A DNA stretch of 64,000 nucleotides from contig NZ_CP077683.1 in the NCBI RefSeq assembly GCF_019063845.1, positions 2,542,001 through 2,606,000 on the forward strand. The letters are read 5' to 3'. Positions 8,418 through 16,106 of the stretch are shown here, one piece after another; position 1 is the stretch's first letter, and every line of letters starts with the position of its first letter. This DNA comes from Geomonas subterranea. GTDB taxonomy: Bacteria > Desulfobacterota > Desulfuromonadia > Geobacterales > Geobacteraceae. The position numbers and the translations under genes are program-made. Below the pieces are notes generated by a model. It had not been told where the DNA came from. It ran no database searches and was given only the letters and a program-made list of their open reading frames with translations.

Positions 8418-10667
<2,250 letters not shown>

Positions 10668-10981: not shown

Positions 10982-12298
10982 TTACGCCTCTTCCGGCTCC
11001 GGCTCCAGTAGCCCCATTTCGGGTTCCTCTTCCTCGACATTCTGGTTGTTCAACACGCGGTGCATGCGTTCCATGTCGAGCTCGTTCTCCCAGCGGGACA
11101 CGACCACGGTGGCGACCCCGTTGCCGACCAGGTTGGTGAGGGCGCGCGCTTCCGACATGAAGCGATCGATCCCGAGGATCAGTGCGAGCCCCGCGACCGG
11201 GATGGTGGGGATGGCGGCGAAGGTCGCGGCGAGCGTGACGAAACCGCTGCCGGTGACGCCGGCGGCACCCTTGGAGGTGAGCATGAGAACCCCCAGGATG
11301 GTGATGGTCTGGGTCATGGTGAGCGGCGTGTTGGTGGCCTGCGCCACGAAGATGGCCGCCATGGTCAGGTAGATGGAGGTGCCGTCCAGGTTGAAGGAGT
11401 AGCCGGTCGGGATAACCATGCCGACCACCGACTTGGTGCAGCCCAGGTTTTCAAGCTTGGCCATCATGCGCGGCAGCGCCGATTCGGAGGAGGAAGTCCC
11501 GAGAACGATGAGGAGCTCTTCCTTGATGTACGAGATGAACTTGAAGATGTTGAAGCCGCAGATCTTGCAGATGGTGCCGAGGACAACGAATATGAAGATC
11601 AGGCAGGTGAGGTAGAAGCTGCCCATGAGCATGCCGAGCTTGGCAAGCGACCCCAGCCCGAACTTGCCGATGGTGAAGGCCATGGCGCCGAAGGCGCCGA
11701 TCGGTGCGAACTTCATGATCAGGTTGACCACCCCGAACAGGGCGTGGGAGACGTCGTCGATGAACTTGTAGACCGGCTTTCCCTTCTCGCCCAGCGCGGA
11801 AAGGGCCAGGCCGAAGAGGATGGCGAAGAAGAGCACCTGCAGGATCTCCCCCTTGGCGAACGCGTCGACGACGCTGGACGGGATGATGCTCAGGGCGAAG
11901 TCGGCGAAGCTGTGGGACTTGGCCGCGGTCGCGGTGTAGGTGGCGAGCCCCTTGGTATCGAGCTTGGTCACATCCGCGTTCATGCCGACGCCGGGCTGGA
12001 TCACGTTGATGACCAACAGGCCGATCCCCAGGGCCAGGGTGGATACCAGTTCGAAGTAGAGCAGCGCCTTGCCGCCGACGCGGCCGACCTTCTTCATATC
12101 GTCCATGCCGGCGATGCCGGTAACCACGGTACAGAAGATCACCGGGGTGATGATCATCTTGATCATCTTGATGAAGCCATCGCCCAACGGCTTCATGGCG
12201 GCTCCGGTGTCGGGCAGGTAGTAACCCAGCGCGACGCCGATAGAAATCGCCAGCAGCACCTGGAAGTACAGAACCTGGTAGAACTTCTTGCTTTTCAT
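10982..12298 (-). CDS. dctA: C4-dicarboxylate:cation symporter, DAACS family
   Basis: 438 residues with about eight membrane-spanning or re-entrant segments, first at [19 protein letters not shown]. The Ser-rich re-entrant loop ([13 protein letters not shown]) and the substrate/cation motif [18 protein letters not shown] place it in the glutamate/dicarboxylate carrier family. The Geobacter context and the neighbouring malic enzyme favour succinate, fumarate and malate as substrates. The C-terminus is acidic. GGAGAGACC precedes the ATG. It lies downstream of a two-component system, with a candidate sigma-54 promoter and twin palindromes in between. A glutamate or aspartate carrier is the main alternative. 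Confidence 0.88.
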
Positions 12299-12361: not shown

Positions 12362-12484
12362 AACACTGTTTGACACCTCATATCAGCAAGACGAATACCA
12401 ACTGTCTGTATACGGATGTAAGTGGCTGTAAATAGGGTTAAAAATGTTGTTTTACGACGAAGAGGAGCATCCAAAGGTATTAAC

Positions 12485-12546: not shown

Positions 12547-12578
12547 TTAACCATGGTTAAGGAGTTAACCCAGGTTAA
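12547..12578. promoter_or_regulatory. Twin palindromes, candidate enhancer site for the NtrC-type regulator
   Basis: TTAACCATGGTTAA (12547-12560) and TTAACCCAGGTTAA (12565-12578) share arms TTAACC/GGTTAA, and their centres are 18 bases apart. They lie about 220-240 bases upstream of the putative dctA start site, a usual distance for sigma-54 activator sites. Confidence 0.6.
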
Positions 12579-12660: not shown

Positions 12661-12686
12661 GGGCGGGAAGAGTGGCCTTCCCGCCC
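12661..12686 (-). terminator. Terminator-like hairpin after the response regulator gene
   Basis: Perfect ten-base stem GGGCGGGAAG / CTTCCCGCCC with a six-base loop, 8 bases past the regulator stop at 12694. On the minus strand an AAATTTTTTT run follows about 14 bases later. Confidence 0.6.
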
Positions 12687-12693
12687 GCCGGAA

Positions 12694-14099
12694 CTACTTG
12701 CGCGACATCTTGAGACGCTTGTTGAGCGCCGGCGCGGAGATGCCCAAAAGTCGTGCCGCGATGGCCTGGACACCGTTGGCGCGGGCGATCGCCTCTTCCA
12801 CCAGGAGTTCGGCGGCCTCGACAAAGGTGGGGAGGCGCTCGAAGGTCGCAAACGGGTTTTGACTTTTGGAGGGAAGCGGTGCCGCATCACGGCTTTGCCC
12901 TATCGCCTTCAAAAAGCTTTCCATGGAAAGGATGCGCTCCTTGTGCAGGCTGACCGCGTTGTAGACCATGCCGCGCAGCTCGCGCACGTTGCCGGGGAAG
13001 CTGTAGGTGGCCAGCACCTGGGCCAGTTCCTTGGGCGGGGTCGGCTTCTTCTTCCCCAGCGACTTGGCGGCCTCGTTCAGGAAGTAGTCGAGCAGCAGGG
13101 GGATATCCCCGTCCTGTCCCTGAGCGGCGGTATGTTGATCCGGTGGGTGCAGAGACGGTAGTAGAGGTCGCGCCGGAACTGCCCCGCCGCCTCCCTGGCC
13201 GCCAGGTCGCGGTGCGTCGCCACCACGATGCGCGCGTTCATCCGCTTGGGGCGGTCCCCGCCCAGCGGGAAGTACTCACCCTCCTGCAGCAGGCGCAGCA
13301 GCTTCACCTGCGACGCGATGCTGAGGTCCCCGATCTCGTCCAGAAACAGCGTCCCGTTCCCTGCCTGCTCGATCATGCCCGGCCGCGCCTGGTCAGCGCC
13401 GGTGTAGGCGCCGCGCACGTGGCCAAAGAGCGTGTCGGCGAACACGGTATCGTCCAGTCCCGCCACGTTCACGGCCACCAGCGGCCCCGAACAGCCGCTC
13501 AGCGCGTGCACGGCGCGGGCCACCAGTTCCTTCCCCACACCGCTCTCCCCGGTGATCAATAACGGCTGGTGGCTCGGAGAGACAGCCTCCACGTAGTTGA
13601 ACAGATCGTGCATGCGCGGATCGGCGGTGACGATGTCAACGAACGCCTCCGGGTGCTTCAACTCCCGCGACAGCATCCGGTCCGACATGGTGCGGAACTC
13701 CTGCTGCAGCTCGAGAATCCGGACCGCCCTCAGCACGCCACCCACCAGGCGGTCCTCCTCGTCGGTCTTGACGATGTAGTCGAAGGCCCCAAGCTTCATG
13801 CAGCGCACCGCCGTCTCCAGCTGGTTCAGACCGCTCACGATGATGGTCATGATGCCGGGGTGGCTTTCGCCGATCTGCTGCAACAGCGTTTCGCCGCACG
13901 GCTGCGGCATGGTGAGGTCCAAGAGCACGAGGCCGATCCCCCCCTGGTCCAGCATCCCCATCACCTCGCGGCTTTCCTGACAGGTGACGATGTTGTTGAT
14001 CCCGGCGCAGCTCTTCAGGGTGAGCGCGAACGACTTGAGCCAGGCGGGCTCGTCATCGACCAGCAGGATGCTGAAGGCGGGGTAGAGACTTTTTTTCAT
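12694..14099 (-). pseudogene. NtrC-type sigma-54 response regulator, split by a frameshift
   Basis: The 5' frame (14099-13077) encodes a receiver (SILLVDDEPAW, phosphoacceptor in VLLDLTMP, Lys in DYIVKTDE) and most of the AAA+ domain: Walker A GESGVGKE, GAYTGA in place of GAFTGA, Walker B TLFLDEIGD. After NIPPLRDR it shifts frame and stops. The other frame carries on with DIPLLLDYFLNEAA, SFPGNVRELRG and a C-terminal Fis-type helix-turn-helix (AARLLGISAPALNKRLK), ending at 12694. One base is missing near 13107-13115 beside a GGGG run. Restored, the protein would have about 467 residues, normal for the family. The cause may be a real mutation or a sequencing error in the G run. Its ATG overlaps the kinase stop by 4 bases. 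Likely target: dctA. Confidence 0.85.
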
Positions 14100-15907
14100 G
14101 ATGCCGAACTCCTGTCGGGGACGGGAAAGGAAAGGGTCACCGTGGTGCCCGCCCCCGGGGTGGACTGGAACTGCAGGGTTCCGCCGTGTTCCTTGACGAT
14201 CCCCGCCGACACGGAGAGGCCGAGGCCGGTGCCCCCGCTCTCCCGCTTGGTGGTGAAGAAGGGGTCGAGCAGGTAGGGGAGGTGCTCCTCGGCCACTCCC
14301 ACCCCCTGGTCGGTGACTTGAAGCAGCACCTGCCCGAGGACGGCGTCGTGACTGGTCCGGACCAACACCCCACGGTCGCGGTCGGGGAGCGCCTGGCAGG
14401 CGTTCAGGACCAGGTTGACGATGACCTGCTCGATGCGCTGACCGTTGCCCAGGATCTTTGGCAGCGAGCCGTGGAAGACGGCCTCGAAGTGGTTGGTACA
14501 GGAACGGATGGTCGGATCCACCAGGCGCAGCGCGGTCCTCGTCACCGCGTCCAGGTCGATGAGCGACTTGTTCCCCATGTCCTTGCGGGCGAAATCCTTG
14601 AGGTCGTTCACGATGCGCTTGATGCGCTGGGCGCCGTCCTGCATCTCGTCCAGGATGCGCGGGATCTCGTCCCTCATCTCCGAGTAGGGCACCCCGCCGA
14701 GCATGAAGTCGCCGTGCTCGTGGTAATGCGCCTCCAGTATCTCCTCCGCGTCGTCATGCACCCTTTTGAGCACCGGGATGTCCAAAAGGAGCAGGCCGTT
14801 GGGGTTGTTGATCTCGTGCGCCACGCCGGACACCAGGGTTCCCAGCGAGGTCATCTTGTCGGCCTGGATCAGCTTGTCCTGGTGACGCTTCAGCGCCTCC
14901 AGCGCCTTGTTGCGCTCGGCCACCTCCTGCGCCAGCGCCGTGGTCCGCTCCGCCACCCGCTTGTGCAGCGTCTTCGACCAGAGCGCGAACACGGCCAGCA
15001 CGATCAAAAGGGGAACCAGGATCATGGCCCCGTACTTGAGCGCGAGTTCCCTGGTGACCCTGGGGGGATCGTTCACCCCGAGCCAGCGGTTGTAGATCTG
15101 GGCGTACTGGCCGGTCTTGATGACGATGGCGAGCCCCTCGTTGAAGCGGGACAGCAGTTCCTTGTCGCCGCGTTGCACCGCGTAGCAGTACTGCTCGCTC
15201 ACCACGGCCTTGGCCACAGGAACCAGGTTGGAGAGGCGCAGCTCCCGGATCAGGTAGATGCCGGGGAGCTGCGCCACCACCGCATAGTCCCCCTGCCCCG
15301 AGGCGAGCAGGCGGAGCGCCTCGGCCGGCGTCGGGGTGAGCACCAGGTCCTTGGCGAACCCCAGCTGCTTCAGGCGCTCGTGCATGATGCCGTCCTGGAA
15401 AACGAGCACCTTCTTGCCGCGCAGCTCCTCCAGGCTCTTGACCGGTCTGGCGTCGCGCCGTGCGAAGATGGCATGATGCACGATGGTGTGCGGAGGCGAG
15501 AACTCGACCGAGTTCAGGCGCTGCGCCGAATAGGAGAGCCCCTGCAGGATGTCGATGCTGCCGTCCTGGAGCCCGGCGCGCACCTCGGACCAGTTGCCAA
15601 ACCGGAAGCGGACCTTCATCCCCATCACCTCGGCGATGGCACGGGTCAGGTCCACGTTGTAGCCGGCGGGGTTGCCGTCCTTGTCGATGAATTCGTAGGG
15701 GGGATAGGCGCGGTCCCCTCCCACCACGACGGTGGCGGGTGGCCCCTGGTGCGCAGGCTCCGGTATGAAGTCGGCCGATGCAGCAAGGCACAGGGGGACC
15801 AGCAGCAGGAACAGGGCCAGGAGGGTGATGCCGGGGAGAGCCTGGGTAAGGCGAAGAAACCTTATGCCGAAGGATTGCGTTTTGCCTGTCAAGGCGCGCT
15901 GGACCAC
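14096..15907 (-). CDS. Sensor histidine kinase with periplasmic solute-binding (SBP family 3) domain
   Basis: 603 residues from the GTG at 15907, preferred because AAGGACGGAG precedes it; a GTG at 15940 is possible but has no ribosome-binding site. A first membrane segment (ITLLALFLLLVPLCLAAS) leads to a domain like the amino-acid-binding proteins of ABC importers (VVVGGDRAYPPYEFIDKDGNPAGY to YAQIYNRWLG). A second membrane segment (AMILVPLLIVLAVFALW) follows, then a coiled linker, the HisKA box VAHEINNPNG and the ATPase motifs DQGVGV, FFTTK and GTGLGLS. It should sense a small solute outside the cytoplasmic membrane and phosphorylate the regulator it overlaps (ATGA). The ligand may be a dicarboxylate or amino acid carried by the downstream DctA; this is inference. 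Confidence 0.88.
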   Translation of the reverse strand: MVQRALTGKTQSFGIRFLRLTQALPGITLLALFLLLVPLCLAASADFIPEPAHQGPPATVVVGGDRAYPPYEFIDKDGNPAGYNVDLTRAIAEVMGMKVRFRFGNWSEVRAGLQDGSIDILQGLSYSAQRLNSVEFSPPHTIVHHAIFARRDARPVKSLEELRGKKVLVFQDGIMHERLKQLGFAKDLVLTPTPAEALRLLASGQGDYAVVAQLPGIYLIRELRLSNLVPVAKAVVSEQYCYAVQRGDKELLSRFNEGLAIVIKTGQYAQIYNRWLGVNDPPRVTRELALKYGAMILVPLLIVLAVFALWSKTLHKRVAERTTALAQEVAERNKALEALKRHQDKLIQADKMTSLGTLVSGVAHEINNPNGLLLLDIPVLKRVHDDAEEILEAHYHEHGDFMLGGVPYSEMRDEIPRILDEMQDGAQRIKRIVNDLKDFARKDMGNKSLIDLDAVTRTALRLVDPTIRSCTNHFEAVFHGSLPKILGNGQRIEQVIVNLVLNACQALPDRDRGVLVRTSHDAVLGQVLLQVTDQGVGVAEEHLPYLLDPFFTTKRESGGTGLGLSVSAGIVKEHGGTLQFQSTPGAGTTVTLSFPVPDRSSAS

Positions 15908-16106
15908 TGCTCCGTCCTTAAAGCTGGGATGCGGGCTCACCGCTGCCGGTCGGCTAAAGGGAGGCCCATCACACTATCGCACGCATGAAGCACTCAAGTC
16001 AATGAAGCTCATGAGAAACGGGGCAAAGGGGGAGGCACCTGCGGGGTAAAAAGGGGCGCAAAGGGGAGAGGCACCTGCGGAGCCAGTCCCCTTTAGCACG
16101 TTACGG

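Follow-up and report, generated by a model that had tools for sequence, protein, structure and literature searches.

A broken reading frame in the sigma-54-dependent regulator gene of dctA in Geomonas subterranea: most likely a recent null mutation or a sequencing error

The window analysed here is a stretch of 64,000 nucleotides (C1:2542001-2606000) of the complete, 4.99-Mb genome of Geomonas subterranea. On its minus strand lie, in this order, the gene of a histidine kinase with an SBP_bac_3 sensor, the gene of a sigma-54 response regulator, which is present in single copy in the genome, and dctA. The features of the locus, all on the minus strand, are the following.

14096-15940, minus strand: partner sensor histidine kinase with SBP_bac_3 periplasmic sensor, HisKA and HATPase_c domains; open frame, with a 4-bp overlap with the regulator start.
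13077-14099, minus strand: 5' open frame of the regulator gene, receiver and AAA+ core (ORF and Pfam); 340 aa including a short out-of-frame tail.
About 13107-13113, minus strand: missing-base site, AGG AC- GGG GAT ATC; a single 1-nt gap against 10 orthologs, whose exact position is ambiguous within this stretch.
12694-13106, minus strand: 3' frame of the regulator gene, AAA+ lid (NVREL/sensor II) and Fis-type helix-turn-helix (translation; Pfam AAA_lid_14 and HTH_8).
12662-12685, minus strand: terminator-like hairpin GGCGGGAAG...CTTCCCGCC located 3' of the regulator gene (from sequence), with a T-run about 10 nt further.
12547-12578, minus strand: two palindromic operators in tandem, TTAACCTGGGTTAA at 12565-12578 and TTAACCATGGTTAA at 12547-12560, together the predicted enhancer on which the regulator would act.
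12385-12401, minus strand: predicted sigma-54 (-24/-12) promoter of dctA, TTGGTATTCGTCTTGCT, conserved in all of the 12 loci aligned.
10982-12298, minus strand: dctA, intact, encoding a C4-dicarboxylate transporter of 438 aa (707 bits for the NCBIfam DctA subfamily as compared to a cut-off of 513; Pfam SDF).
8418-10667, minus strand: malic enzyme/phosphate acetyltransferase-like fusion (maeB-like), intact (ORF and Pfam).

The malic enzyme fusion, which carries a phosphate acetyl/butyryltransferase-like domain, lies directly downstream of dctA and has a weak sigma-54-like site, TAGCACCGCCGTTGCT, upstream. A transcriptome paper on a related Geomonas does not mention dctA.

The regulator gene spans 1406 bp (from 14099 to 12694, minus strand) and its frame is broken. 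The first frame contains a receiver domain (Response_reg, PF00072, residues 11-119, E 1.3e-19) and a complete AAA+ sigma-54 domain (Sigma54_activat, PF00158, residues 156-321, E 1.1e-54) with the Walker A motif GESGVGKE; it ends with ...NIPPLRDRTGISPCCSTTS* at the stop at 13077. The -1 frame encodes DIPLLLDYFLNEAAKSLGKKKPTPP...NVRELRG...HTH and reaches a TAG stop at 12694-12696. These results confirm the single-base frameshift of the preliminary description, in which the 5' frame closed at 13077 and DIPLLLDYF, the NVREL block and the helix-turn-helix followed one frame over down to 12694. When one base was restored, translation gave a product of 468 aa, within one residue of the length of about 467 that had been predicted for the full-length protein. 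Judging by sequence, the ancestral gene is a member of the NtrC family, whereas the product of the deposited allele is only a part of such a protein. Among solved structures, NtrC-family regulators are the nearest, 1ny5 and 4l4u being examples. The sigma-54 contact loop, encoded within 13077-14099, reads GAYTGA instead of the usual GAFTGA, a variant common to 41 of the 109 homologs. A 12-bp palindrome, GGGGATATCCCC, adjoins the missing-base site. The GGGG run, which was evaluated as a cause of the lesion, proved to be non-specific, with 784 G/C runs of at least 4 bases in the 64-kb window and 18 in the regulator gene itself.

The gene was aligned at the DNA level with its ten closest orthologs, each of which is a 1407-bp open frame. 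One gap of a single nucleotide was sufficient across the 1407 columns, and it left a codon 'AC-' between AGG and GGG. No compensating indel was found elsewhere in the regulator gene, this being the only gap in the alignment with the 10 orthologs. At the site the sequence reads AGG AC- GGG GAT ATC, as compared to GTN or CCC followed by GGN, GAY and ATH in the relatives. When the comparison was extended to 109 homolog loci, collected from a broad search and from the genus, the frame through the site was intact in all of the 108 complete homologs, while the remaining locus ends at a contig end. In all of the complete homologs the lid and the Fis-type helix-turn-helix are fused to the receiver and AAA+ domains; here they are not in one polypeptide with them. 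The relatives of this genome include named species of Geomonas and Citrifermentans. The best match was an unbroken open frame in each of the 18 other genomes of the genus, although in the three most distant of these it was only 72-76% identical to the regulator. The preliminary description had considered that relatives might share the split and carry two separate conserved proteins; the relatives showed neither, but one intact frame in each. The disruption is confined to one lineage and the frame is intact in its relatives, which is the pattern of a recent pseudogene.

The sequences between the regulator gene and dctA bear on what the regulator controls. Palindromes of the form TTAACCNNGGTTAA occur twice in the whole genome, both upstream of dctA, and these operators are conserved upstream of dctA in relatives. 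The combined operator pattern was found in 13 of 19 genus genomes, always on the 3' side of the regulator gene and within a few hundred bases of it, and dctA was the next gene wherever the neighbourhood was looked at. Likewise, the promoter string TTGGTATTCGTCTTGCT has a single exact match genome-wide. Since both operators and promoter string are found only at dctA, the intact regulator is probably an NtrC/DctD-type activator dedicated to dctA, which would be its principal or sole target, and the conserved sites predict that it would activate the -24/-12 promoter from the upstream operators. The tie between regulator and dctA made in the preliminary description is therefore strengthened by the conserved sigma-54 promoter and by the dctA-specific operators.

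This arrangement can be compared with known systems. In rhizobia, DctB and DctD exert two-component, NtrC-type control of dctA through upstream sites and a -24/-12 promoter, and the same traits are predicted for Geomonas; the sensor of the kinase differs, being SBP_bac_3 in Geomonas and of another type in rhizobial DctB. In G. bemidjiensis (Geobacter/Citrifermentans), where three parallel systems are known, Gbem_3227/Gbem_3228 lie beside dctA (Gbem_3225) with the same order of kinase, regulator and dctA (PMC2996986). The conserved sigma-54 promoter and the TTAACC..GGTTAA operators are also shared, whereas the regulator frame is intact in G. bemidjiensis and broken in the Geomonas sequence. A second system is linked to dcuB, which is RpoN-dependent in G. 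sulfurreducens (PMC2725144). The corresponding RpoN system (GSU2751/Gbem_2921) has an intact paralog in the present genome, at G000:C1:2173112-2174527; its regulator is 68-69% identical, its kinase is of the same type and it adjoins a dcuB-like gene. The intergenic region of this paralog lacks TTAACCNNGGTTAA, and the palindrome that it contains, ATAACCTGCGGTTAT, is a different one. In the stretch upstream of the dcuB-like gene (G000:C1:2172693-2173111), this related palindrome is followed by ATAACTCAACGTTAT at a different spacing, and the two may possibly represent a diverged operator of the sister regulator.

The age of the lesion was estimated from the changes on the branch of this genome, which were assigned by comparison with its nearest relative plus five outgroups. 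Before the site we counted 35 synonymous and 6 nonsynonymous changes and after it 14 and 1, respectively, from which we conclude that decay has not begun. Under drift, the 15 changes in the 3' frame would be expected to divide into about 4 synonymous and 11 nonsynonymous, as compared to the 14 synonymous observed (p<1e-6, which holds at transition biases from 1 to 6). This excess indicates that selection maintained the normal frame of the 3' part up to the very recent past, and such intact constraint rules against an old pseudogene. The own-branch changes are mostly synonymous also in the kinase gene (55:23) and in dctA (49:8), both of which have open frames. Three explanations agree with this pattern of substitutions: a mutation that arose very recently, an error made in sequencing or assembly, and productive slippage.

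We lean towards the first of these, a very recent strain-specific null mutation, which would place the lesion in the cell's own DNA. An error of assembly or consensus, with an ordinary intact regulator gene in the living strain, is a possible but less probable explanation; the two give an identical signature. An error would account for a frameshift that is unique to one assembly, for a coding signature that is fully intact on both sides of the site and for operators, promoter, kinase and dctA that are all intact, and the adjoining palindrome GGGGATATCCCC may trouble base calling. On the other hand, unambiguous internal indels are rare. The lesion is the only internal frameshift common to all five comparisons of the window with five relatives, and no other unambiguous one was found over the 264 kb that were set against a single relative, where 187 genes were matched, 162 of them at full length. 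The census used a codon-position GC filter, as in this GC-rich genome unfiltered long ORFs were swamped by antisense ORFs; it also flagged N-terminal frame differences from the relative outside the window (G000:C1:2672026-2672298, 2484493-2484639 and about 2685133), and these remaining flags are probably due to 5' over-extended starts of the query ORFs. Since the other sigma-54 regulators of this genome, among the matches listed, also have open frames, an assembly riddled with indels is unlikely. The affected codon, moreover, differs by substitution from that of all close relatives, so that adding a G would not simply restore their sequence. The type strain of the species, RG2T, was sequenced with PromethION and NovaSeq (Nanopore and Illumina reads) and assembled with Unicycler (PMC8859169). 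If the present strain is RG2T, indel errors should be uncommon in single-copy DNA of such a hybrid assembly. The same paper reports malate, succinate and fumarate as electron donors for its strains (PMC8859169), and, under the same proviso, this growth on C4-dicarboxylates would count in favour of an error; it is a weak hint that C4-dicarboxylate uptake works, and other transporters may serve. Within the group, genuine lesions of this sort are common, considering that the finished genome of G. bemidjiensis contains 27 pseudogenes with homopolymer frameshifts, of which 7 are polymorphic (PMC2996986). There, too, single-base indels break otherwise conserved genes and some are polymorphic within the population; those lesions lie in runs of at least 5 bases, whereas the run beside the Geomonas site is of four.

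Readings in which the broken gene still yields a working activator carry much less weight. Programmed slippage, the third option of the preliminary description, turned out to be poorly supported. Either -1 re-pairing of the GGG codon or insertion of a G by RNA polymerase would produce some full-length activator, with the truncated form possibly as a second product, and we regard this as improbable. It is true that a P-site GGG re-pairs perfectly one base back to give ...RDR-TG-DIPLLL, that a T at the shift position is natural in other homologs (LRERTGDIP) and that constraint on the -1 frame has been strong. Nevertheless, the shift is neither used nor needed in any relative and its site is not conserved among orthologs. 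ACG GGG A does not match the X XXY YYZ heptamer, so that only single P-site re-pairing of GGG would be possible, and four Gs are a short run for polymerase slippage. No stimulatory RNA structure was found around the site, as the fold there was equalled or bettered by 127 of 200 shuffled sequences (z = 0.44). Furthermore, NNG GGG occurs in frame 1214 times in 180 genes, about 7 per gene, and the codon that follows, ATA, is not particularly rare (4.3 per 1000); efficient slipping there would therefore damage most genes. Even less probable is a real but leaky allele, in which -1 slippage at GGG would supply a little full-length activator and a low basal expression of dctA. Least credible of all is a stable functional split, in which the shortened receiver-AAA+ protein would cooperate with a lid-HTH protein made separately from a start near 13017: a 107-aa ORF with a GTG start does span NVREL and the helix-turn-helix, but the two-gene form occurs in no relative, and an AAA+ core separated from its lid should lose activity in ATPases of this type.

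If the frameshift is a recent mutation, as we favour, a base would have been deleted from the codon preceding GGG-GAT in the regulator gene of the sigma-54-dependent dctA two-component system. The resulting 340-aa product would keep the receiver and the AAA+ core and would be without the AAA+ lid (sensor II) and the DNA-binding domain. From what is known of the family, we infer that such a protein is unable to bind DNA and, lacking the lid, is probably without ATPase function; it should neither bind the two TTAACCNNGGTTAA operators nor drive open-complex formation. As a consequence, dctA would not be induced and would be uncoupled from its sensor, as the preliminary description had suggested for a real lesion, unless a paralogous regulator substitutes. 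Rescue by the dcuB-linked paralog is uncertain, because the palindrome in the intergenic region of that paralog is a different one.

Rather than pointing to a new mechanism, the lesion most likely goes back to a loss of function that arose very recently or to a mistake made in sequencing. In the latter case, the genome record needs correction. The more useful by-product of the analysis is the predicted single-target regulon, in which dctA alone has the two TTAACCNNGGTTAA sites and the -24/-12 promoter. Should the lesion be real, the strain would be a naturally occurring knockout of a regulator dedicated to C4-dicarboxylates, with the other parts (kinase, operators, promoter and dctA) undamaged, and it would offer a handy test of the pairing between operators and regulator and of cross-talk with the dcuB-linked paralog.
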